Positions 7,028 through 45,965 of a stretch of 64,000 nt of DNA are shown piece by piece. The number at the start of each line of letters is the position of its first letter. Position 1 is the stretch's first letter. The stretch comes from an uncultured bacterium. GTDB taxonomy: Bacteria; Cyanobacteriota; Vampirovibrionia; Gastranaerophilales; Gastranaerophilaceae. The position numbers and the translations under genes were made by a program. The stretch spans positions 1-64,000 of the forward strand of contig CAMOPX010000009.1 in NCBI GenBank assembly GCA_946622415.1, written 5' to 3'. A model generated the notes under the pieces. That model saw only the letters and a program-made list of their open reading frames with translations, searched no databases and had not been told where the DNA came from.

Positions 7028-9016
7028 ATGGTTATGGAATTATATTTTATAGCGTTATTGATACCGGTTTTTTGCGGATTATTATCAATATTTATTAAAG
7101 AAAAACACAAAATGAAAGTGTGCTCTATTTTTGCGGGTATTTCAGCACTTTTACTTTTAAAACCCGCAATATATTCTATTTATACAGGCGAAGAACTCAG
7201 TTATAGTTTTTATATATCAGAAATATTCGGCAGAATAAATTTTGTAATAGATCCGTTGTCTGCCTTTTTTATTCTTGTAATTTCAATTATGAGTTTTGTC
7301 GGAATAATTTATGCAAACGGATATATAAAACCGTATTTAAACAAAAAGCTAAACACATCTTCTCACACATTTTTTCTAATGCTTTTAACTGCTTCTATGC
7401 TGGGGGTTGTTACTTGCCAAAATGCTTTAGCGTTTCTTATTTTGTGGGAAATTATGTCCCTATCTTCATTTTTTCTTGTTATTTTTGAAGAAGATAAAAA
7501 AGAGGTTCTTAATTCGGGTATAAAGTACCTCGTTTATATGCATATTTCGGTAATTTTTATAATGTGTGCTTTTGCGTTGATGAGTAACATTTCAAACAGT
7601 TTTAATTTTTCCGATTTTACAAATGCAATAAATCAAAACAGTCATTTTAAAGATATCGTATTTATACTATCATTTATAGGCTTTGGGACAAAAGCAGGTT
7701 TTATTCCTTTTCATAACTGGCTCCCCGATGCACATCCTTCGGCTCCGAGCCATATATCGGGAATTATGTCAGGTGTAATGATTAAAACAGGCATATACGG
7801 AATTTTGAGAACAATAGTAATAACAGGTATACCATCTAAGATTGTTGCATATTGTGTTCTTATAATTGCTATTACTTCTGCTCTTTGGGGTGTATTATAC
7901 GCAATAAGTCAACACGATATCAAAAAGCTTCTTGCTTATCACAGTTTGGAAAATATAGGTATAATCGGAATAGGGATAGGAATCGGAATGCTCGGTGTAA
8001 TCTATCACAACGGTTATACTGCAATTCTCGGTTTTAGCGGTGCAATATTGCACGTCTTGAACCACTCAATTTTTAAGATGTTATTGTTCTTTTGTGCGGG
8101 AAACGTATACAACAAAACTCATACCAGAAATATTGAGCTTCTTGGCGGTTTAATTAAAAAAATGCCGTATACTGCAGCTTTGTTTATAATAGGCTCAATT
8201 GCAATATGCGCTATTCCGCCCTTTAATGGTTTTGTTAGTGAATTTTTAATATATTCGGGCGTTGTTCTCGGTATGTTTAAATCCAATATTGCATTGTTTT
8301 TGACCTTGGTTATTACTCTTTCTTCACTCGCTCTTATCGGGACTATGGCGATACTCTGTTTCACAAAAGTTGTCGGAGTAGTATTTCTCGGTAATCCAAG
8401 AAGCAAAGAGGCGGAAAATATTGATTCTGACGCAAGCAAAGTAATGACTGTTCCAATGACTTTTCTTGCAATACTAACGTTTGTAATCGGGATTTTTCCC
8501 CAATTTGCCGTTTCTGTTGTTGCAATTCCAACATTAAACATTTTAGGCTTCAACACGATTCCCGAAGAAATTAAATCAATATTTGAATTAGCAAATTTAA
8601 TCAGTGTTTTATGCTTTATATTCCTTGCAATTTTGGCAATTACTTTTGGTATAAGATTTCTTATAAACAGAAAAACCAAAAAACACACTACTTGGGGCTG
8701 CGGATATAATAAAATAAATTCAAGAATGCAATACACTGCATCCAGCTACGCAGGTTTATTTATATCCACATTAAAACCTTTATTCAAAAGAGTCCCGCAT
8801 ATTAAAAAACCAAAAGACTTATTCCCGAAAATCGCTTATTATGAAGTTGAAATTGAGGATTTAGAAGAAGCATACATCATAAAGCCGTTAATAAAACTGG
8901 ATGAAAAAATATTATCAAAATTTGAAAGAATTCAAAACGGAAATATGCAGCAATATATTCTATTTGGGCTGGTATTTTTGATTTTGGCAATATTGGGATT
9001 GATTTTTATAGGATAA
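7028..9016 (+). CDS. Ehr complex antiporter-like membrane subunit (HyfB/HycC-like)
   Basis: Large membrane subunit of an energy-converting complex, 662 residues, with about 16 membrane segments. The NADH-quinone oxidoreductase M/N-type block is recognisable: FGTKAGFIPFHNWLPDAHP (about 220-240), then a Lys- and His-bearing helix (HDIKKLLAYHSLEN, about 297-310). In relatives this subunit moves protons or Na+. A long C-terminal extension ends in one more helix, as in HyfB. The start is uncertain: ATG 7028 or ATG 7034, neither with a strong Shine-Dalgarno. It is the first gene of six tightly spaced genes; the next begins 4 bases after its stop. Confidence 0.88.
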   Translation: MVMELYFIALLIPVFCGLLSIFIKEKHKMKVCSIFAGISALLLLKPAIYSIYTGEELSYSFYISEIFGRINFVIDPLSAFFILVISIMSFVGIIYANGYIKPYLNKKLNTSSHTFFLMLLTASMLGVVTCQNALAFLILWEIMSLSSFFLVIFEEDKKEVLNSGIKYLVYMHISVIFIMCAFALMSNISNSFNFSDFTNAINQNSHFKDIVFILSFIGFGTKAGFIPFHNWLPDAHPSAPSHISGIMSGVMIKTGIYGILRTIVITGIPSKIVAYCVLIIAITSALWGVLYAISQHDIKKLLAYHSLENIGIIGIGIGIGMLGVIYHNGYTAILGFSGAILHVLNHSIFKMLLFFCAGNVYNKTHTRNIELLGGLIKKMPYTAALFIIGSIAICAIPPFNGFVSEFLIYSGVVLGMFKSNIALFLTLVITLSSLALIGTMAILCFTKVVGVVFLGNPRSKEAENIDSDASKVMTVPMTFLAILTFVIGIFPQFAVSVVAIPTLNILGFNTIPEEIKSIFELANLISVLCFIFLAILAITFGIRFLINRKTKKHTTWGCGYNKINSRMQYTASSYAGLFISTLKPLFKRVPHIKKPKDLFPKIAYYEVEIEDLEEAYIIKPLIKLDEKILSKFERIQNGNMQQYILFGLVFLILAILGLIFIG

Positions 9017-9020
9017 AAAA

Positions 9021-9935
9021 ATGACATTAATATTAGATATTTTAATACTTTTCATTATGCCCTTCATAATGCTCGGCATAATCAAAAAAACAAAAGCCTT
9101 CTGGGGCGGAAGAAAGGGTGCATCAATATTTCAGCCTTTATATGACGTATTAAGATTAATGAAAAAAGAATCAATATACTCGGAAACAACTTCGCTTATT
9201 TTTAAACTTTCACCGATTGTTAATTTTTCGGTTGTAATTTTTGCATCACTCTTTGTACCGTTAATAAACGGCTATTCTATATTAAATATTCCTTTTGCAT
9301 TTATCATATTTTCTTATATACTGGGTTTTGCAAAATTCTTTTCACTTATTGCTTCGCTGGATACGGGAAGCAGTTTTGAAGGAATGGGAGCTTCAAGAGA
9401 AGCTTGTTTTTCAACAATTGTAGAACCTGCTTTTTTTATATCAATGGCATCAATTATTGCCTTAACTAAAGTAACAAGTTTTGAAGCCTTAAAAATGATT
9501 TTACAAAATTCGGGGATATATGGAATATTAATCACAATATTAACAGTAGTAACTCTATTTATAATGCTGTTAATCGAAGGGTGCAGGGTTCCGGTTGATG
9601 ATCCTGCAACACATCTTGAACTTACAATGATACATGAAGTTATGATACTGGATAATTCGGGTGCTGATTTAGGCTTTATTTTATGGGCTTCTGCAATAAA
9701 GATGTTTCTTTTCGGAGCATTAATTACATCTCTTATTATCCCTGATAATCTTCCTGTTTGGATTTCTTGTTTATTATTTATTTTATCGATTTCACTTTTG
9801 GCATTTGTTATAGGCACAATAGAATCTTCAATAGCCAGATTCAGAATGACACATATTTTTGAATTTATTTTTATAATGTCTATCATGGCACTTTTGATTT
9901 TGACTCTTGTTACATATAGGATATACGGAAATTAA
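9021..9935 (+). CDS. Ehr complex NuoH-like membrane subunit (HyfC/HycD/EchB-like)
   Basis: Membrane anchor that links the soluble redox module to the ion-pumping module in complex I-like enzymes, 304 residues and about eight helices. Family blocks seen are KGASIFQPLYDVLRLMKKES (about 33-52), SSFEGMGASREACFSTIVEP (about 117-136) with the Gly-Ala-Ser-Arg-Glu core, and EGCRVPVDDPATHLELTMIHEVMILDN (about 190-216) with acidic residues of the quinone/ion channel. It lies 4 bases after the HyfB-like gene and 2 bases before the next. Confidence 0.9.
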   Translation: MTLILDILILFIMPFIMLGIIKKTKAFWGGRKGASIFQPLYDVLRLMKKESIYSETTSLIFKLSPIVNFSVVIFASLFVPLINGYSILNIPFAFIIFSYILGFAKFFSLIASLDTGSSFEGMGASREACFSTIVEPAFFISMASIIALTKVTSFEALKMILQNSGIYGILITILTVVTLFIMLLIEGCRVPVDDPATHLELTMIHEVMILDNSGADLGFILWASAIKMFLFGALITSLIIPDNLPVWISCLLFILSISLLAFVIGTIESSIARFRMTHIFEFIFIMSIMALLILTLVTYRIYGN

Positions 9936-9937
9936 CT

Positions 9938-10627
9938 ATGGAAAATATTTTTATTATATTGCTTGGTTTAACAATGCTCTATATAGCTTCTACTTCAAGA
10001 CTCTTGGGGCATATTAATATGCTTGTTGTTCAAGGGGTTTTGCTTCTTTTGATTTCTATCGGGGGTTTAGCTGATGAACAATGGTTTAATTTTGAAATTT
10101 TTAATAATACCAAAGAGAATTTTAATCACATATTGGGAATTTTGTTTATATTAATTGAAACAATAGGTGTAAAATCGATTTTAATTCCCGTTTTTTTAAA
10201 AAAAGTTTTAAACAAAACTCATACTCATAGGGATTCGGGAGCTAATATTCCGCATTTTTATGCTCTTGTTATTTCAAGTTTAATTTTATTTGCCGGTTTT
10301 ATGATGGCAAATCTTCATATAAATTCATTTAAACTTATATCTCCGTTGATTTTTGGAGTATCAATTTCAATTATTATTACGAGTTTATGGATGATTTCAA
10401 TTAAACACACTGTTTTATCCAATGTAATCAGCTTTATTACAATGGAAAACGGTATATTTTTGTTATCTCTTGCAATAGCAAAAGAAATGCCGATAGTAGT
10501 AAATTTGGGTGTCCTATTGGATATATTTATTGCAGTATTTATTCTCGGAATGCTCGTTTTGGAAATTGATAATGAATTTAGAGATTTAGAAGTTTCACAA
10601 TTGTCTGATTTAAAGGATTATGAATAA
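9938..10627 (+). CDS. Ehr complex NuoK-like membrane subunit (HyfE-like)
   Basis: Integral membrane protein of 229 residues with about seven helices, corresponding to HyfE, which carries a NuoK-like part in its C-terminal half (SFITMENGIFLLSLAIAKEMP, with the characteristic Glu in the helix). In relatives it contributes to the proton channel. Its last base overlaps the first base of the next gene (10627), indicating coupled translation within the operon. Confidence 0.82.
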   Translation: MENIFIILLGLTMLYIASTSRLLGHINMLVVQGVLLLLISIGGLADEQWFNFEIFNNTKENFNHILGILFILIETIGVKSILIPVFLKKVLNKTHTHRDSGANIPHFYALVISSLILFAGFMMANLHINSFKLISPLIFGVSISIIITSLWMISIKHTVLSNVISFITMENGIFLLSLAIAKEMPIVVNLGVLLDIFIAVFILGMLVLEIDNEFRDLEVSQLSDLKDYE

Positions 10628-12033
10628 TGATTAGTTTAATTTTAATATTCCCGATTTTAGCTTGTTTAATAATATTTTTAATAAAGAACAAAAACATTAA
10701 CAACATAATAATCAGCTTGTATGCAATCATACATTTTGTATGTTCTGTTTGCCTTTGTTTGAACTTTAACCCGTACGACATAAAACAGAATCTTTTTGCT
10801 GTTGATGAATTAAACAAAATATTTCTGATTGTTTTATCCGTAGTTTTTTTGGCGGTTGCCATTTATAACAGCGGCTATATGAAAGATGAAGTATCTTCTC
10901 ATAAAAAGCTAAGACATTTTGGCTATGCGGTATTATTATTCATACTATCTATGACAGGAACAATTTTAAGCTCTAATCTGGGTATAAGCTGGGTTCTTAT
11001 TGAAGCAACAACCCTTGCGAGTGCTTATTTGATTTATTTCAATAAAACAAAACATTCAATCGAGGCTGTTTGGAAATATGTTTTTATTTGTTCCATCGGT
11101 ATTGCTCTGGCTTTCGTCGGAATAATATTATTAACCATTTCAACAGGTGATTTGAATTCTTTGTATTTCGTTGATTTATATAACAATGCAAAAATATTTA
11201 ATATGTTTTGGCTTAAATTGTCTTTTGTGTTTATTTTATTTGGTATAGGAACAAAAATGGGTCTTGTACCCGTTCATTTTTGGCTTCCTGATGCCCATGC
11301 GCAATCTCCCTCGCCAATTTCCGCATTACTTTCCGCAACATTATTAAACTGTGCATTTTTTGTAATATTAAAGGTCTTTAAAATTTTAATTATTGCAGGC
11401 TGCGACAGCTGGGCAAGAATTATGTTATATACAATGGGCTTTTTATCTTTATTTATTGCAAGTGTTTTCATCTATCACATCAACAACTACAAAAGAATGC
11501 TTGCTTATTCTTCAATTGAAAATATGGGAATTTTGGCCATTGGTATGGCTCTTGGCGGGATAGGAGTAGTAGCTTCCATAATTCATCTTATAGGTCATTC
11601 TTTAATAAAAGCTTCATTTTTTATGACTTCGGGTAATATTTTAAAGATTTATAATACAAAAAAGATAAAATCAATAACGGGACTCATCTCGACCGACAAA
11701 AAAACAAGCTGGCTCTGGGTATTGTCTTTCTTGGGAATTTCGGCTTTTCCGCCTTCAATACTCTTTATCAGCGAATTTTTAATCTTGAAAACAATGCTAA
11801 AACAACATCATTATTTTATGAGTGCGGTATTTTTATTTTTACTTACCATTGTACTGTACGGACTATTAAAAGTTGTTTTTAAAATGACTGTTGCGGATAA
11901 CAAGGAACACACAAAAGCTTATCTGCCAATAACAATGTATGCTCCGCAAATTGTACTTTTGCTTATAGCGTTTGTTTTAGGAATATATTTTCCTTATTTT
12001 GATACTATAAAACAAGCCTTAATCGGATATTAA
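10627..12033 (+). CDS. Ehr complex antiporter-like membrane subunit (HyfF-like)
   Basis: Second antiporter-like subunit, 468 residues, about 13-14 helices. It carries the M/N-family blocks GIGTKMGLVPVHFWLPDAHAQ (about 204-224), NNYKRMLAYSSIENMGI with the conserved Lys, and IGHSLIKASFFMTSGN. It is a diverged paralogue of the HyfB-like subunit. Two such subunits in one cluster are typical of Hyf/Ehr complexes rather than the simpler Ech enzymes. It starts within the stop codon of the HyfE-like gene. Confidence 0.88.
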   Translation: MISLILIFPILACLIIFLIKNKNINNIIISLYAIIHFVCSVCLCLNFNPYDIKQNLFAVDELNKIFLIVLSVVFLAVAIYNSGYMKDEVSSHKKLRHFGYAVLLFILSMTGTILSSNLGISWVLIEATTLASAYLIYFNKTKHSIEAVWKYVFICSIGIALAFVGIILLTISTGDLNSLYFVDLYNNAKIFNMFWLKLSFVFILFGIGTKMGLVPVHFWLPDAHAQSPSPISALLSATLLNCAFFVILKVFKILIIAGCDSWARIMLYTMGFLSLFIASVFIYHINNYKRMLAYSSIENMGILAIGMALGGIGVVASIIHLIGHSLIKASFFMTSGNILKIYNTKKIKSITGLISTDKKTSWLWVLSFLGISAFPPSILFISEFLILKTMLKQHHYFMSAVFLFLLTIVLYGLLKVVFKMTVADNKEHTKAYLPITMYAPQIVLLLIAFVLGIYFPYFDTIKQALIGY

Positions 12034-12043
12034 AGGATAAATT

Positions 12044-13492
12044 ATGAATTGGATAAAAACAAAGAATAATAATAAGATAAATGCTCTTGAAATACCGACA
12101 GGTACCGTTGAAGAATTAAAAACGGATTTAAGAAATATGAAATACAGGCCAATCGGATTTTTTGGAAAACAAGAATTTTCAAATGTAAGATTGTATGTCG
12201 TTCTTGCAGATGACAGTTTGGGCGACATATATGTTTCATCAATTTTATTTAATCCCGATATTAAATCCTACGATTCTTTAACACCGGAATTTCCTGCGTT
12301 TCATAACTTTGAAAGAGAATTTTATGAAGATTTCAAAATAGAACCCAAAAACCATCCATGGCTAAAACCCCTAAGAAAAAATCAAGACGAATACCCGTTT
12401 TTCAAAATGGAGGGTGAAGATGTCCATGAAGTGGCGGTAGGTCCAATTCACGCAGGCGTAATCGAGCCCGGACACTTTAGATTCATGTGTCAAGGAGAAA
12501 AAATATATAATTTAGAAATAATGCTCGGGTACCAACACAAAGGCATAGAAGAACTCATGCTTAATCCCAATAACAGATTAGCTGAATCTATTTGCGGGGA
12601 TAGCGTAATTGCATACAATATGGCTTTTTCTCAAGTAATCGAAGCGCTGACTCAAACAACTATTCCGAAAAGAGCACAACTCATAAGAAGAATAGCACTC
12701 GAAATGGAAAGAATGGCAATACATATAGGTGACTTAGGTGCAATATCCGGAGATATGGCATATTTAATGGGGGCTTCCATTTTTGGCACAACAAGAACAC
12801 TGATTATCAATACTATGCTTGAAATTTCCGGAAGCCGTTTCGGAAGAGGGTTATTTGATGTAGGCGGTGTAAATTTTGATATAGATAAAGAAATGACCAA
12901 AAAGATTAAATCTACAATCGATGAGGTTTTAAAAACAGTTAAAAGAACAGCCGAAACTATGCTCAAAAAAACCTCTTGTATTTCAAGAATGGAACAAACA
13001 GGAACTGTCAGCAAAGAAACGGCTGTTTTATTGGGTGCAGTCGGTATGGCAGCGAGAGCCTCAGGCATAAATATAGATTCTCGATATGATTTTAAAGATG
13101 AATGGTACCTAAAATATTGGCAAAATACAGAATTTAAACCCGCAGGCGACGTGTGGTCAAGATTTATGCTAAGGTACAAAGAAATTATACAATCGGCTGC
13201 ATTTATAAATAATTTTCTTGATGAATTAGATAACAACAAAGACGGCCTTACAACTTCAATAAACAATATTCCTCCTAATACCTTTGCAATTTCAATTGTT
13301 GAAGGATGGAGAGGAGAAATTGTCCATTGTGCAATAACGGGAGCCGATAGCGAATTTATCAGATATAAAATAAAAGATGCATCTTTTAACAACTGGTATA
13401 TGCTCTCTATGGCAGTCAGAAACAACGGCATTTCAGATTTTCCGCTATGCAATAAAAGCTTCAATCTTTCTTACTGCGGAAACGATTTATAA
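12044..13492 (+). CDS. Ehr complex large subunit (HyfG/NuoCD-like) lacking NiFe ligands
   Basis: Soluble catalytic-type subunit, 482 residues: an N-terminal 30-kDa (NuoC-like) domain (about 1-110) fused to a 49-kDa/hydrogenase-large-subunit domain. Key positions differ from true hydrogenases. The N-terminal motif that should be CxxC reads C184-G-D-S187. The C-terminal DPCxxC motif is absent: the protein ends DFPLCNKSFNLSYCGNDL with single Cys at 469 and 478. This matches the energy-converting hydrogenase-related (Ehr) group, which keeps the fold but not the NiFe site. Conserved structural blocks such as VGPIHAGVIEPGHFRF and LGYQHKGIE are intact, so the gene is not a pseudogene. The redox partner is unknown. 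Confidence 0.88.
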   Translation: MNWIKTKNNNKINALEIPTGTVEELKTDLRNMKYRPIGFFGKQEFSNVRLYVVLADDSLGDIYVSSILFNPDIKSYDSLTPEFPAFHNFEREFYEDFKIEPKNHPWLKPLRKNQDEYPFFKMEGEDVHEVAVGPIHAGVIEPGHFRFMCQGEKIYNLEIMLGYQHKGIEELMLNPNNRLAESICGDSVIAYNMAFSQVIEALTQTTIPKRAQLIRRIALEMERMAIHIGDLGAISGDMAYLMGASIFGTTRTLIINTMLEISGSRFGRGLFDVGGVNFDIDKEMTKKIKSTIDEVLKTVKRTAETMLKKTSCISRMEQTGTVSKETAVLLGAVGMAARASGINIDSRYDFKDEWYLKYWQNTEFKPAGDVWSRFMLRYKEIIQSAAFINNFLDELDNNKDGLTTSINNIPPNTFAISIVEGWRGEIVHCAITGADSEFIRYKIKDASFNNWYMLSMAVRNNGISDFPLCNKSFNLSYCGNDL

Positions 13493-13518
13493 ATAAAATT
13501 TAAAATAGGGATTTAAAG

Positions 13519-14247
13519 ATGTTTGACACAATTAAATTAAAATATTTTCAAGGCAATCAATATATTAAAGATATTAAAAACGCACAAATAAAAGAGCAAT
13601 TTAGGGGTTTTCCGATTATAAAAAGTTCAAAATTGGATAGCTCTGTTTGCCCGACAGGAGCACTATCCGCAAATCCTAATTCAATAGATTTAGGGAAATG
13701 CACTCTATGCGGAAAATGTCAGTGCGAAGCAATTAAATTTACAAACAAATACAAACTGGCTTCAACCTCAAAAGAAAATCTGATTATCAAAGAGAATATG
13801 ACTTACGAAGATTTTGAAAAAATCGCAATTAAAGCAAGACAGGAAATTAAAAGAGTTTTTTCAAAATCATTAAAATTAAGGCAAGTATCTGCAGGCGGCT
13901 GTAACGGATGCGAGATGGAATTGAATGCTTGCTCAAATTGCAATTTTGATATGGGAAGATACGGAATTGATTTTGTTGCTTCTCCTCGACACGCAGACGG
14001 AATTGTTATCACGGGCCCGATAACAAAAGCCATGGCATACGCCCTTGAGGACTGTTATAAATCGGTACCCGAACCTAAAATAGTTATTCTAACCGGAGCT
14101 TGTGCTATTTCAGGCGGAATATTCCAAGATTCAAAAGAACTTGATAGAACATTTATTGAAAAATATAATATTGATTTATATATACCGGGTTGCCCCGTTC
14201 ACCCGCTGACATTTATCAATGCAGTGCTTGATTTTATTTCGGCATAA
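13519..14247 (+). CDS. Ehr complex small subunit, ferredoxin-like domain fused to NuoB-like domain
   Basis: Iron-sulphur subunit, 242 residues. The N-terminal part has CPTGA (C44) and CTLCGKCQC (C61, C64, C67, C69), enough for one [4Fe-4S] cluster. The C-terminal part is the NuoB/hydrogenase small-subunit domain with C128-x-x-C131 followed by E, C195 (LTGACAISGG) and C225 (PGCPVHP), the four ligands of the N2/proximal cluster. Electron transfer through the complex is therefore likely even though the large subunit lacks a NiFe site. It combines the roles of HyfH and HyfI in one protein. It is the last gene of the cluster, and no formate dehydrogenase or maturation genes follow. Confidence 0.88.
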   Translation: MFDTIKLKYFQGNQYIKDIKNAQIKEQFRGFPIIKSSKLDSSVCPTGALSANPNSIDLGKCTLCGKCQCEAIKFTNKYKLASTSKENLIIKENMTYEDFEKIAIKARQEIKRVFSKSLKLRQVSAGGCNGCEMELNACSNCNFDMGRYGIDFVASPRHADGIVITGPITKAMAYALEDCYKSVPEPKIVILTGACAISGGIFQDSKELDRTFIEKYNIDLYIPGCPVHPLTFINAVLDFISA

Positions 14248-41232: not shown

Positions 41233-42006
41233 TTAACCCCCCTGTTCGGAAAGCACGCATACACCATTATTATTCAAATTGTAACCATCTTTACATCTTA
41301 CACATGTATCGTCAGCCTTTGTACATGCGCAATTGCCTTCATCTGTAGATTTACACTCGGTACAGCTTAAAGACCCTTGGTCTGCATATTGGTTACCGGG
41401 GCAAGGCAGACAAACTTCATCAGAAGTTGCACCTTCTTCTTGTTCAGGATTAAAATAAGTATCCTTAGGACAAGCCGTACAAGCCTGTGAACCGAGTGCA
41501 TCATTACTGTATGACCCTTTAGGGCATGGGATGGCCTCTATTCCGTCACAATAGTGTCCTAAAGGACATATTTCGCAATTCCCATTATTAGAATAATATA
41601 CACCGCTTTCTGATATCATACACTTGAAACATTTATTTTCTGTTTGGCATTCTTCGCAATTTTCCGCCTTGCACTCTACACATTTACAAGCTGCAATATT
41701 AACAAGCATACCTTCATCGCATTCAATCGGGCACTGCTTACAGACAGCATCTTCACCTTTGGTACATATTGTACAATTCGGACCTACTTTTTCGCCATCA
41801 ATAATTAGATCTTGGCAATCAGTCGTATATTCAGATTCTTCATTATTTTCTTCAGCTTCAATTTTTATTGACTTACCGGTAATTTTTTTTGTAATTACAG
41901 GCACAACGGCAGCAGTCACTATGGATAATATAATTAATGAAAGCATGACTTCGATTAAAGAAAATGCTTTTATATATTTAATAAAGTTTTTTTTCTGTTT
42001 TGCCAT
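41233..42006 (-). CDS. prepilin-like Cys-rich surface protein with GCC2/GCC3-type repeats (short paralogue)
   Basis: 257 residues. The N-terminus is a type IV prepilin signal: 14 residues ending KA, then FSLIEVMLSLIILSIVTAAVVP, so cleavage after Ala14 would leave Phe+1 and Glu+5 before a hydrophobic helix. The rest is Cys-rich, with CPLGHYCDGIEAIPCPKGSYSND, CPKDTYFNPEQ and CPGNQYADQGSLSCTEC units like the ephrin-receptor/GCC2-GCC3 modules of eukaryotic surface proteins. It lacks the C-terminal domain of the large neighbour. AAGGAAC precedes the ATG. It is likely exported and pilus- or pseudopilus-associated; the function is unknown. Confidence 0.8.
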   Translation of the reverse strand: MAKQKKNFIKYIKAFSLIEVMLSLIILSIVTAAVVPVITKKITGKSIKIEAEENNEESEYTTDCQDLIIDGEKVGPNCTICTKGEDAVCKQCPIECDEGMLVNIAACKCVECKAENCEECQTENKCFKCMISESGVYYSNNGNCEICPLGHYCDGIEAIPCPKGSYSNDALGSQACTACPKDTYFNPEQEEGATSDEVCLPCPGNQYADQGSLSCTECKSTDEGNCACTKADDTCVRCKDGYNLNNNGVCVLSEQGG

Positions 42007-42041: not shown

Positions 42042-42089
42042 ATATAGCAAGTTCAGATGAATTAATAAATACTACCAAACTTGCTATAT
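42042..42089 (-). terminator. long-stem hairpin between the two Cys-rich genes
   Basis: Perfect 12-bp arms ATATAGCAAGTT (42042-42053) and AACTTGCTATAT (42078-42089) with a 24-base loop, followed on the minus strand by TTTTAATAAAA. It lies right after the large gene's stop and before the short paralogue, so it could end or reduce read-through. The loop is long for a standard terminator. Confidence 0.5.
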
Positions 42090-42097
42090 ATTTTATT

Positions 42098-45000
42098 TTA
42101 ACTTGGATTCTTTACGCATCTGAAGCCTCTTGCTGCAAATTTACTGTAATTAACAGCTGCTGTTTGGCATTCTCCTGTGCCACCAATTGGGTGATTACAA
42201 GCAAATGTGGCATCAAATCCGACTGCTTGCGCAAAATTTCCTGTAGAATAGTTTGCGTGATATACCTGCGGATAACATTTTTCACCCGTATCGGAACCAA
42301 CGCACTTTTGACTTGTAGTATCGCATCTTGCGCCACTTGGCATCTTACCATTTAATGGATTTTTTTGAGCGCACATATAAACGCTTTCATCAAGATTGTT
42401 ATCAATAACATAATGATATGCTGTCATAGAAGCCAATCTGCCGCCCAAATCTTTACAAATTTGTAGTGCACCTTCATAGTTGCAAACTGTGCTTGCACAA
42501 CCAACGCCGCTGCAACCGCCTGAAGCAAACGCACCGGCAGCTGTTTTCCAGCAACATTTAGTAGTTTTACTATTGCAGCTTGTACTATAACTAACAAATT
42601 TAACACTGGTCGAAGTAGTAGAAGTAATATTATGTTTCGCATACATACATACCGCTCCATCGCCTGAATTTACAAATTTCCAGCCGCTGTCGCATCTATA
42701 TTTACATGAACCTCCGCTTAACTTGTAACCAACAGCGCAAGCGGTACATGCACCTGTTGTCCTGTTGCACGCTGTACAATGTGTAGTCTTTGAAGAACAC
42801 GCCTTACATGATGATTTACCTTCTTCGTCTTGATATTGTCCTGCAGGACAAGCAGCACAACCTGTTTGACCTGCGGTACAAGAGGTACCCTTACTACATG
42901 GATTACCGTTAGCGGTTCTTCCCTTTATATTGCAGCCTCTGCAGTTACCGGCAGAACATTTTGAACATGCTGAATGACCTGCGGTACAATAAGTACCCGT
43001 ACCACATTCATCGCCATCTGAGGTTCTGCCTTCAATATCACAACCCTTACAGTGACCTGCAGTACAGCTTTTACAAGCTGATTTACCTGTATCATCCTGA
43101 TATTTTCCGGTGCCGCATTTAGAACAAGCTGTTTGACCTGCGGTACAATAGGTACCCGCATTACATTCTGCACCATCAGAGCCTTTTCCATCATTGTTGC
43201 AGCCTCTACAGTGGCCGGCAGAACATTTTGTACATGCTGTTTGACCTTTCGTACAATAGGTACCCGCATCACATGCTCCGCCATTTGTGGGTCTTCCGGA
43301 TTGGGTACAACCCTTGCAGTGACCTGCAGTACAATTATTACAATATGTCCTTCCGGCTACATCCTGATACGTGCCAGGTCCGCAAGCTATCATACTACAT
43401 TTATCTGCGGCTAAATAATGACCCGCAGTAACAGCAGAACATGCACTTGCATTTGAATATTCACCCGAACCGCAATTAACACATCCGTTTTTACCGCTGT
43501 TAGATGTTTTACCGCAAGCACAGTTCAAACATGCTGTATAAGCACCTCCGTCATTCGGAGTGTATTTGCCCACACTACACGAAGTTTTTGTATATGCTCT
43601 ATTAGCAGGACAATAATAACCGTTATTACAATTTGTGCATATTTTTCTATTTCCGGAATTAGGTGAGTAATTACCTGCAAGACACGATGTACGAGTAGTT
43701 GCACCATCTGCAGGACAATAATAACCTGTATTACATGGTTTACATTCTGTTTGCCCTTCTGCATCCTGATATTTACCTGCAAGACATATTGTCGGTGTAC
43801 TCATTCCTTGGTTGGGGCAATAATGACCCCTTGTACAAGGTTTGCAAGAAGTTTGACCTGTTAAATTTTGGTATTGACCTGCAGGGCAGGGTACGCATTT
43901 ATTTGTTGAAGTATTTTTATAATATCCTTTATTACAAGAACCTTCGCATGTTCCGTCGACATTACATACGCCGAGACATGAATCGCCACAAGGTGTGCAA
44001 ACGGTTTCCGTATTACATGCTTTTGTATGTAAACCTGAAGGACAACTTACACAGGTACCGCCTAATAAGTAGTAATCAGCAGCACATTTACATTGTCCGC
44101 CACATAAATTGAATCCTGTTTTACATTGTGTACATGTGCCGTCATCTTTTTCACAAACACTGCAAAATTCAACCTTGCTATCACAAGATTTGCAAGCAGT
44201 TTGACCTGTTGTATCCTGATATTGACCGGAGCTGCACTCAGTAGGTTCAGACGCTCCCGAAGCAGGACACATATTTCCGATTGTACACGAAAGACAAGAA
44301 GCCTTACCTGTTGAATCTTGGTATTGACCCGGATTACAATTTTTACATGCAGTTTGACCTGTTGAATTTTGGTATTGACCGGGATTACAATCTTTACATG
44401 CAGTTTGGCCTGTTGAATTTTGGTATTGACCCTGATCACAATTTTTACATGCAGTTTGGCCTGTTGAATTTTGGTATTGACCCGAATTACAATTTTTACA
44501 TGCAGTTTGACCTGTTGTATCCTGATATTGACCTGCAGGACAATCTAAACAGTTTTCATATCCGTTATCATCAGAAGGTGTATATTTACCTTTAGGACAT
44601 ATGGTACTGCTATCCAGTTTTTCTGTACCGCCTTCAGGACAAGCGTGCCCTGAATTACAATTTTTACAAGCTGTTTGACCTGAAAGATCCTGATATTGAC
44701 CTGCGGGACAAGGAGCCTGTCCTGTCATAGCTTGAGAAGGACACATATTACCGGGGTCACAGCCTTTACATGTAGTTTGGCCTTTTAAATCCTGAAATTC
44801 TTTTGGTTGACAAGGTATTTGTCTTGTATTTCCGCAATTTTCATCATCACCGTTACAAACAGGAACAGGACATTTGTATCCCTGATCGCATTCTTTGCAT
44901 TCTCCTTGACCTTCCTGATCTTGATAATATCCCGCTCCGCATGGTTCGGGTTGTTTTGTTGTATTGTTGGGACATTTTTTGCCCTTCGGACATGGGATAG

Positions 45001-45526
45001 GTTCCGTGTTGTAGCCCACATTTCCGCCTGATTCTTCATCATCAGGATCGGGAGGACAGTAATTGCCTTCGCCACATTCTACTTTATTTATACCGTCAGG
45101 ACAATAATACCCCGCAGGGCATCCTATACATTTTTTACCATCAGGATAATATCCTACTTTACATTGCAGACATTTATCTTTATTCGCACATTTTACGCAA
45201 TTAACATCTAATGTAGAACAACCAACACACTCACAACTTCTGGTATTTGCATATTCATCCATATTACACGCTAGCATGGTTTTGCTGCACTGTAAACATT
45301 TGCTGGGATGTTTCATACACAATGTACAAGCACTTTTAAACGGCGGAGTACATTGTTCCGTAATGCCTGCAGCATTTTTTATACTAACAGGGAGTTTATC
45401 TAACCTTTTGACCATTACAGGGGAAAATGCCGCAGATATACAGGTTATAACCAATAAACCGACCATAACCTCAACAAGCGACATTGCTTTAAATTTGCGT
45501 ATAAAATTCGAAAATAACTTATTCAT
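42098..45526 (-). CDS. giant prepilin-like Cys-rich protein with tandem GCC2/GCC3 repeats
   Basis: 1142 residues. Type IV prepilin start: 14-residue leader ending KA, then MSLVEVMVGLLVITCISAA (Glu at +5). Residues about 60-940 are Cys-rich repeats of the form CPAGQYQD..GQT.CK.C..GYYCP, 15 or more units; I count 32 Cys in the first 275 residues. A middle block (about 340-420) is a compressed 17-residue repeat. The last 200 residues are different: NYEGALQICKDLGGRLASM and a final GFRCVK resemble C-type-lectin or FGE-like folds (tentative). AAGGAA lies upstream of the ATG. Predicted: an exported, heavily disulphide-bonded surface fibre or adhesin, with the signal for pilin-type assembly. The short paralogue follows it. 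Confidence 0.82.
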   Translation of the reverse strand: MNKLFSNFIRKFKAMSLVEVMVGLLVITCISAAFSPVMVKRLDKLPVSIKNAAGITEQCTPPFKSACTLCMKHPSKCLQCSKTMLACNMDEYANTRSCECVGCSTLDVNCVKCANKDKCLQCKVGYYPDGKKCIGCPAGYYCPDGINKVECGEGNYCPPDPDDEESGGNVGYNTEPIPCPKGKKCPNNTTKQPEPCGAGYYQDQEGQGECKECDQGYKCPVPVCNGDDENCGNTRQIPCQPKEFQDLKGQTTCKGCDPGNMCPSQAMTGQAPCPAGQYQDLSGQTACKNCNSGHACPEGGTEKLDSSTICPKGKYTPSDDNGYENCLDCPAGQYQDTTGQTACKNCNSGQYQNSTGQTACKNCDQGQYQNSTGQTACKDCNPGQYQNSTGQTACKNCNPGQYQDSTGKASCLSCTIGNMCPASGASEPTECSSGQYQDTTGQTACKSCDSKVEFCSVCEKDDGTCTQCKTGFNLCGGQCKCAADYYLLGGTCVSCPSGLHTKACNTETVCTPCGDSCLGVCNVDGTCEGSCNKGYYKNTSTNKCVPCPAGQYQNLTGQTSCKPCTRGHYCPNQGMSTPTICLAGKYQDAEGQTECKPCNTGYYCPADGATTRTSCLAGNYSPNSGNRKICTNCNNGYYCPANRAYTKTSCSVGKYTPNDGGAYTACLNCACGKTSNSGKNGCVNCGSGEYSNASACSAVTAGHYLAADKCSMIACGPGTYQDVAGRTYCNNCTAGHCKGCTQSGRPTNGGACDAGTYCTKGQTACTKCSAGHCRGCNNDGKGSDGAECNAGTYCTAGQTACSKCGTGKYQDDTGKSACKSCTAGHCKGCDIEGRTSDGDECGTGTYCTAGHSACSKCSAGNCRGCNIKGRTANGNPCSKGTSCTAGQTGCAACPAGQYQDEEGKSSCKACSSKTTHCTACNRTTGACTACAVGYKLSGGSCKYRCDSGWKFVNSGDGAVCMYAKHNITSTTSTSVKFVSYSTSCNSKTTKCCWKTAAGAFASGGCSGVGCASTVCNYEGALQICKDLGGRLASMTAYHYVIDNNLDESVYMCAQKNPLNGKMPSGARCDTTSQKCVGSDTGEKCYPQVYHANYSTGNFAQAVGFDATFACNHPIGGTGECQTAAVNYSKFAARGFRCVKNPS
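44305..44532 (-). repeat. 51-bp in-frame tandem repeats
   Basis: Four to five near-identical units of 51 bases, each encoding CNPGQYQNSTGQTACKN or a close variant (17 residues, two Cys). Differences between units are a few bases, pointing to recent expansion by slippage or unequal recombination. The period keeps the reading frame. Confidence 0.85.
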
Positions 45527-45965
45527 CTATATATTTCCTTTTATAATAATCATTTTTTTACTCGTTGAACGGTAATCGATGACATAATATTGCATAAACG
45601 CAAATGCTAATTCTATTATAGAAAATGCAATCTTTTTTGCTCCTTTTAGCAACCGAATACCTCCGAACGACAAAACTCTTTATGCTTAACAGCTTTAAAT
45701 TCCCAAAAAATATTATTTTTTAACAATATTTTGCAAATTTCTCCGTATAAACCGAGCATATACTACTTCCATTTTAATACAATAAGTATTATTTCACATT
45801 ATTTAAAATTTGTAAACTATGTTTATTTTTGTTATTCAATATTTTGTGATTTATTAATATAATATGAGATATAAAGAGATGCTGAAATAAATTCAGCATG
45901 GCAAACCAAAAAATTCCGAAGCGACTTCGGAATAATATATTGTAGAAATATAAAGGAAAATTGTT
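45527..45965. other. 439-base divergent intergenic region before the nucleoside transporter
   Basis: No gene is supported between the leftward Cys-rich gene and rightward nupC. It contains: a -10-like TATAAT at 45858-45863 with a weak TTCAAT -35 (45835-45840, 17-base spacer) for nupC; a decayed palindromic repeat at 45877-45902; and a second hairpin TTCCGAAG/CTTCGGAA (45914-45932). On the minus strand the latter runs into six T, so it could stop antisense transcription. No recognisable riboswitch core was seen. Confidence 0.5.
45877..45902. repeat. decayed copy of the REP-like palindrome
   Basis: ATGCTGAA (45879-45886) pairs with TTCAGCAT (45892-45899). Its reverse complement differs from the repeat unit at 2526-2552 at only about three positions. 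It lies in the nupC 5' untranslated region. Confidence 0.65.

Follow-up and report, generated by a model that had tools for sequence, protein, structure and literature searches.

Type IV pilins that carry added adhesive modules (modular pilins) are an established class, and a 2021 survey reports, in its available text, 264 architectures (PMC8179133, PMC9934059). According to the accessible parts of these sources, the modules of Streptococcus sanguinis PilB and PilC are thought to sit at the pilus tip (PMC8179133, PMC9934059), and the most extreme modular pilin cited there is 860 residues long and contains a motif of unknown function in 12 copies (PMC8179133). The cysteine-rich region of the Chlamydomonas mastigoneme protein Mst1 is described, in the available part of its report, as an extended region of 678 residues that spans 26 nm and holds 26 disulfides (PMC11015965). 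In this study, a window of 64,000 nucleotides (positions 1 to 64,000 of contig CAMOPX010000009.1, assembly GCA_946622415.1) from an uncultured bacterium of the Gastranaerophilaceae family was analysed. The bacterium has a small and AT-rich genome, and the window encodes a protein of 1142 amino acid residues (aa) composed of GCC2/GCC3-type cysteine modules, which are otherwise best known from animals and protists. I estimate at roughly 55% the probability that this protein is an oversized modular pilin-type adhesin, most likely located at the tip of a type IV pilus, with a disulfide rod and an Lcl_C-like end. A literature search of titles and abstract openings, covering few subscription papers and preprints, found no prior description of a prepilin anchor joined to a GCC2/GCC3 stalk.

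Like PilB and PilC of S. sanguinis as described in the available texts, the 1142-aa protein has a predicted class III leader and a pilin-type helix with a putative adhesive module added. Unlike them, it lacks a recognisable counterpart of their canonical head, and its neck and stalk together occupy 884 residues where they have a compact module (PMC8179133, PMC9934059). It is longer than the 860-residue extreme cited in the available survey text, while the prepilin-type giants of a second family in the order have up to 2399 residues. Its cysteine-rich region matches in sequence the region that is extended in Mst1. However, as far as the available part of that report goes, Mst1 is eukaryotic, contains Ig-like domains as well as a polyproline helix, polymerises via its cysteine-rich domains and has no prepilin anchor (PMC11015965). 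The proposed tip position is shared with PilY1/PilC1-type tip adhesins, but these are non-pilins with a beta-propeller domain according to the available survey text (PMC8179133), and Pfam matched no such domain here. Cysteine-rich repeats in a multigene surface family also recall the Giardia variant-specific surface proteins (VSPs); the Pfam VSP profile matched one of 25 scanned family members weakly (0.0059) and did not match the 1142-aa protein at E≤1. VSPs differ from the 1142-aa protein in both the anchor and the C-terminus.

The anchor, the neck and the stalk

The following features carry the argument:

42098..45526, reverse strand, giant modular prepilin-type gene (1142 aa, 141 Cys, ATG start, uninterrupted open reading frame)
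45485..45526, reverse strand, prepilin leader of 14 residues, cleavage predicted after Ala14 (sequence and family alignment)
45401..45484, reverse strand, hydrophobic helix with Glu5 and Pro22 of the mature protein (family alignment)
45122..45352, reverse strand, conserved cysteine neck, residues 59-135, 12 Cys invariant in 19/19 aligned members (alignment)
42701..45121, reverse strand, GCC2/GCC3-type stalk, residues 136-942 (PF07699 matches)
44306..44533, reverse strand, 51-bp (17-aa) tandem unit, 4.5 copies, 90% matches (repeat analysis)
42930..43427, reverse strand, 267-bp unit, 1.9 copies, 73% matches (repeat analysis)
42101..42700, reverse strand, C-terminal domain, residues 943-1142, probably a divergent relative of Lcl_C-like domains that paralogs in the genus carry (profile and hhalign)
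41233..42006, reverse strand, second family member of 257 aa with 28 Cys, without the large C-terminal domain (Pfam and sequence)

The giant reading frame lies at the coordinates given in the first-pass annotation of the window; it is intact, without an internal stop, and 140 of its 141 cysteines are located C-terminal of the prepilin helix. The leader MNKLFSNFIRKFKA is followed by the helix MSLVEVMVGLLVITCISAAFSPVMVKRL, giving the prepilin motif KA/MSLVEVMVGLL (the slash marks the predicted cleavage site). The class III-style prepilin signal proposed in the first-pass annotation stays below the 21.2-bit cut-off of the N_methyl profile when the 1142-aa protein is taken alone (E=0.042, 13.9 bits), but it is supported by the family alignment and by the 257-aa protein encoded next door, which exceeds the cut-off with 24.7 bits. 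Glu5, Pro22 and the 12 neck cysteines are invariant across all 19 aligned members (17 congeneric genes in addition to the two in the window), although the invariance of Glu5 is partly a matter of selection, because the members were chosen for readable starts. In a set of 52 genes from four congeners, some of which are also in the alignment, Pro22 is present in 51 of the 51 readable starts (one start is cut off), and cleavage is predicted after Ala in 39 and after Gly in 12; Glu5 was demanded by the search pattern for this set. The N-terminal profile of the family aligned weakly with mature PilE1 (8pfb, E=0.062), placing profile position 15 on PilE1 residue 1, which is the expected register. 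Thus, judging from the alignment and the neighbouring gene, the protein has a class III prepilin leader with Glu5 and a hydrophobic helix. In a comparison with solved structures, the neck part of the family profile resembled R-spondin repeats.

The stalk matches PF07699 (Ephrin_rec_like, GCC2/GCC3 type) at E=5.8e-22 with 77.7 bits against a curated cut-off of 23.1, so that the module assignment made at first pass was borne out by a profile search. In hmmscan, 12 stretches matched at E≤1 and 8 at E≤0.01. Eight shuffles of the protein were prepared and two were scanned, one free and one with all Cys and Gly positions fixed; these two gave no family at E≤10. The pattern of half a module, written C-x(2)-G-x(1,2)-[YFCH], occurs 39 times in the protein, whereas 500 shuffles gave 6.2 on average and never more than 14. 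Chance cysteine richness is ruled out by the shuffle scans and these counts. The best match among solved structures was Mst1 (8tx1, E=4.4e-23).

The 51-bp and 267-bp repeats in the stalk indicate that it has grown by local duplication, and the 51-bp copies read as a recent in-place expansion. Scaled on Mst1, the 884 residues of neck and stalk would form a rod of about 34 nm. The long stiff fibre envisaged in the first-pass annotation is doubtful at this length, and also because no pilin head was found between the helix and the first cysteines; the disulfide rod is best read as a spike rather than a long fibre.

The C-terminal domain

It was found that the end domains vary among the 25 scanned members, with Lcl_C in 3, Gly_rich_2 in 2 and GLUG in 2. 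Thirteen end domains of paralogs share GC-x-RT-x-C; most have WRLP after it, and the complete ones finish with RCV. A profile of these 13 domains matched the window C-terminus with 20.8 bits, with a bias term of 22.1, while one of 20 shuffles was reported, at 0.7 bits. Alignment of 8 of the 13 domains with the same C-terminus by hhalign gave 89%. These comparisons suggest that the window C-terminus is a probable divergent relative of the Lcl_C-type domains of the paralogs. When the 8-domain profile was compared with PDB, its sole match was to complement C2 fragments (E ~0.04), which was taken as chance.

In having an Lcl_C-type end domain behind a stalk, 3 of the 25 members resemble Legionella Lcl, whose C-terminal domain (Lcl-CTD) binds glycosaminoglycans according to the available part of its report (PMC11162425). 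In contrast, Lcl is described there as a non-pilin with a collagen-like stalk (PMC11162425), and the window C-terminus has no direct Pfam match.

A multigene family in the genus

Is this architecture common in the genus and the order? At E≤1e-3, PF07699 was matched in 22 of 58 genomes, of which 20 were among the 28 of the genus and 2 came from a second family in the order. At E≤1e-5, the matches were 13 among 287 genomes of the order that are at least 90% complete (12/22 same-genus, 1/265 others) and 11 among 289 genomes of the class that are at least 80% complete, all of the same genus. Of the scanned members, 24/25 match PF07699 at E≤0.01. A profile of the anchor plus neck, used at E≤1e-6, matched 27 of the 28 same-genus genomes, with 1 to 24 places each and at least 40 in G009, where 40 candidates were scored with the profile and all 40 counted. 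Two of the 27 have weaker matches only (best 1.2e-15 in G005 and 1.5e-11 in G027). Ten or more matches were found in 16 of the 28 genomes, most of which are 1.7-2.1 Mb. A profile match is not always a family gene: of the four that the bacterium's own genome has at E≤1e-6, one looks like an ordinary prepilin and has 3.1% Cys. The anchor-plus-neck profile also matched 26 of 69 genomes from outside the genus, with E-values of 5.7e-10 or worse and at most 10 places in one genome, and these matches may be ordinary prepilins. Thus, as read from these profiles, the family is multigene in the genus, with one type of anchor and many paralogs with differing ends. The first-pass annotation had picked out the giant gene itself and made no mention of its neighbouring twin, of the family across the genus or of the separate C-terminal domain.

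In the own genome, the members are the two window genes and a 394-aa cysteine-rich one (E=1.2e-11). There is also a weaker 1138-aa prepilin-like frame (L160, C3:46212; E=5.2e-5) with a glycine-rich stretch.

In a second family of the order (G044 and G047), giant cysteine-rich prepilin-type proteins of 1276-2399 aa were observed (L067:2321-9520 and L068-L071). Their prepilin helix differs from that of the genus family, and their C-terminus looks hydrophobic. L067 and L068, the two scanned singly, both contain PF07699 and GLUG. Apparently, the same module has been put to use independently in another family of the order.

Recombination among paralogs

The 52 genes were compared within their four genomes, where they represent 18/24, 14/21, 9/23 and 11/14 of the profile matches. 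Only 12 of 335 within-genome pairs share at least 100 nucleotides (nt) at 95% (1/153, 8/91, 2/36 and 1/55); the count excludes one self-overlap of two neighbouring genes in L124. The shared stretch lies inside the genes in nine of the 12 pairs and immediately downstream of them in three. Three of the nine have a block that starts at the gene start while the upstream DNA differs; the two of these from G022 and G020 include genes truncated by contig ends. In G002, one pair agrees at 97% over the first 1097 nt of the gene, but at 0.80 over the last 400 nt. No pair of compared paralogs has upstream regions alike at 0.9 or more, and thus no common expression site was seen. Many contigs terminate inside or just behind family members. 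The blocks fit occasional recombination and are no proof of antigenic variation.

In G025 (L122-L134), near-identical DNA lies just downstream of members, with 17/78 pairs reaching at least 90%, and this is where several contigs end.

Pilus genes and disulfide formation

A domain search of the own genome found a T2SSF protein, a T2SSE protein with an MshEN domain, a secretin, and two further T2SSE proteins of 366-367 aa. I take the T2SSF protein to be of the PilC type, the MshEN-containing T2SSE protein of the PilB type, and the two shorter T2SSE proteins of the PilT type. The N_methyl profile matched 19 places in this genome at E≤0.1, 13 of them over the cut-off. Modular pilins are recognised by an added domain that is not specific to pilus biology, which PF07699 provides here, and by type IV filament machinery in the genome, of which PilB-, PilC-, secretin- and PilT-type genes are present and the peptidase gene is absent from the own assembly. 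A termite-gut genome of Gastranaerophilales is reported, in the available part of its description, to have pilA, pilB, pilC, pilT and pilD (PMC5877343).

Among the congeners, 26 of 27 encode a prepilin peptidase. Since the own assembly is 91.86% complete and nearly all congeners are positive, its absence there is judged, though not proven, to be a matter of incompleteness, and true loss is disfavoured on the same grounds. In G011, G003, G007 and G044 (the last belonging to the other family), the peptidase gene has a family member at a distance of about 3.5-7 kb. The proximity was noticed in these four genomes and may be due to chance because there are many copies per genome.

A 401-aa VKOR-DsbA fusion with CALC and CPYC motifs is encoded in the own genome, which agrees with the oxidative folding outside the cytoplasm that had been predicted at first pass. 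However, VKOR was found in 39/39 relatives searched, with or without cysteine-rich prepilin genes, and is thus not specific to the family. Of the two genes whose presence elsewhere in the genome had been suggested as a check, the DsbA-like one was found in the own assembly, and the peptidase in congeners.

Proposed mechanism and alternative explanations

The anchor, neck, stalk, family size and machinery genes, all read from sequence, are compatible with the following course of events. The prepilin peptidase would cleave the class III leader, and the helix would anchor the protein in the inner membrane with the remainder in the periplasm. The VKOR-DsbA fusion would then make up to about 70 disulfides, folding the neck and stalk into a thin rod. 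PilB and PilC would place the protein at the tip of a type IV pilus, which would exit via the secretin; a thin rod could pass the secretin lengthwise at the tip, whereas it would hardly fit as a body subunit. The Lcl_C-like C-terminal domain would recognise a surface-borne ligand (probably a glycan), toward which PilT could pull the cell. Family members probably act as rod-like adhesins displayed at the cell surface, and host or prey contact by the 1142-aa protein is plausible.

Several observations weigh against this pilus-tip adhesin. Position +1 of the mature protein is Met, not Phe, and the first cysteines occur only 45 residues past the cleavage site. In place of a canonical pilin head, Pfam gave only N_methyl and NCBIfam gave nothing at E≤1, although a head may have diverged beyond the reach of the profiles; filament packing is not assured because no head is recognisable. 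For the C-terminus, Lcl_C (PF07603) gave no match at E≤10, phmmer found only the query itself among 70 fetched cysteine-rich frames, the 8-domain paralog profile did not find the solved Lcl-CTD in PDB, and the predicted structure was too poor to use (predicted local distance difference test score 39.5). The own assembly lacks the peptidase, and no HIJK-type minor pilins or PilM/N/O turned up, with no search aimed at them. The lack of a head, with cysteines starting almost directly after the helix, would also suit an anchored surface or periplasmic rod that does not polymerise, in which the prepilin-type helix, cleaved or not, is a membrane anchor only; a length of about 34 nm is also on the scale of the envelope. 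Such a rod without a pilus is rather unlikely: Glu5 and Pro22 in 19/19 members (chosen partly for the motif) fit filament packing better than plain anchoring, and the motor, platform and secretin genes are present in the own genome.

The size of the family raises another question, namely whether these are alternately expressed, recombining paralogs that form a variant surface protein system like that of the protist VSPs and play no part in pili. Such a system would fit the number of profile matches, 1 to 40 in each congener that matches, as well as the G002 pair that is alike at the start and diverged at the end, and the many contigs ending in or behind members. It seems improbable, however, as sharing is limited to 12 of 335 pairs, the upstream regions are dissimilar without a common expression site, and the own genome has few members. 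A related idea, that the genus repertoire is a bacterial counterpart of protist variant surface proteins with one pilin anchor and neck, rods of changeable length and recombining ends, is tentative and on the doubtful side; it may be compatible with the modular pilin adhesin. As for the origin of the modules, the top structural match is to a protein of Chlamydomonas, which might suggest direct gene transfer from a eukaryote such as the host or a gut protist. This is very improbable given the prepilin anchor, the native base composition, the in-place 51-bp expansion and the genus-wide neck. The third-position GC content (GC3) of the giant gene is 0.246, inside the range of 0.211-0.317 of eight other measured window genes, and thus nothing points to foreign DNA. 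The GC content of the window is 0.325, which together with genome size and gene content would suit a gut lineage of the Gastranaerophilales type. Contamination or recent whole-gene transfer from a eukaryote was ruled out by the native GC3, the in-place repeats and the neighbouring nupC gene, which is present in 29/29 genomes searched (the own genome, 17 congeners and 11 others). Ancient transfer at the module level, or convergence, is possible; bearing on this, two metagenome-assembled genomes (MAGs) of other groups have the PF07699 module on proteins without a prepilin motif.

These proteins (L065:4090-7068 and L066:4723-7332) come from MAGs labelled Tenericutes and Alphaproteobacteria, and their N-termini look like secretion signals by eye.

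The locus in the window

Further features around the giant gene are as follows:

45534..45542, reverse strand, likely ribosome-binding site AAAAGGAAA ahead of the ATG of the giant gene (read from sequence)
45788..45816, reverse strand, promoter-like site TTTACA-17-AATAAT, 10/12 with TG before, top-scoring upstream (consensus match only)
42042..42089, reverse strand, terminator-like hairpin of 15 bp, z = -4.5, between the giant and the 257-aa genes

In the region searched, 22 promoter-like sites were found, compared with 17.8 expected by chance. The hairpin makes separate transcription of the two family genes possible. No cysteine-rich prepilin gene was found upstream of nupC in 13 congeners read (about 9 kb in 12 and 6.6 kb in G016; G007, G009, G010 and G014 were left out of the 17). 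In the congeners read, the rhamnose gene is not beside nupC and the neighbourhood as a whole is not conserved. Thus, the absence in 13 of 13 tells little about the age of the gene pair. Elsewhere in the window (7028-14247), an operon resembles, as judged from its protein sequences, that of a membrane-bound complex I-like hydrogenase.

Implications

These results suggest that type IV pilin anchors have apparently been combined with animal-like disulfide-rich rods. Three matters are opened to test: how the lineage attaches, whether a headless pilin-type subunit can enter a filament, and whether VKOR-DsbA can form about 70 disulfides in one protein. If the variant repertoire is real, it would allow cells to alter the binding properties or the exposed parts of their pili or surface. 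With ten or more matches in 16 of 28 genomes, the scale of the family would make it central to the interaction of this lineage with its surroundings.

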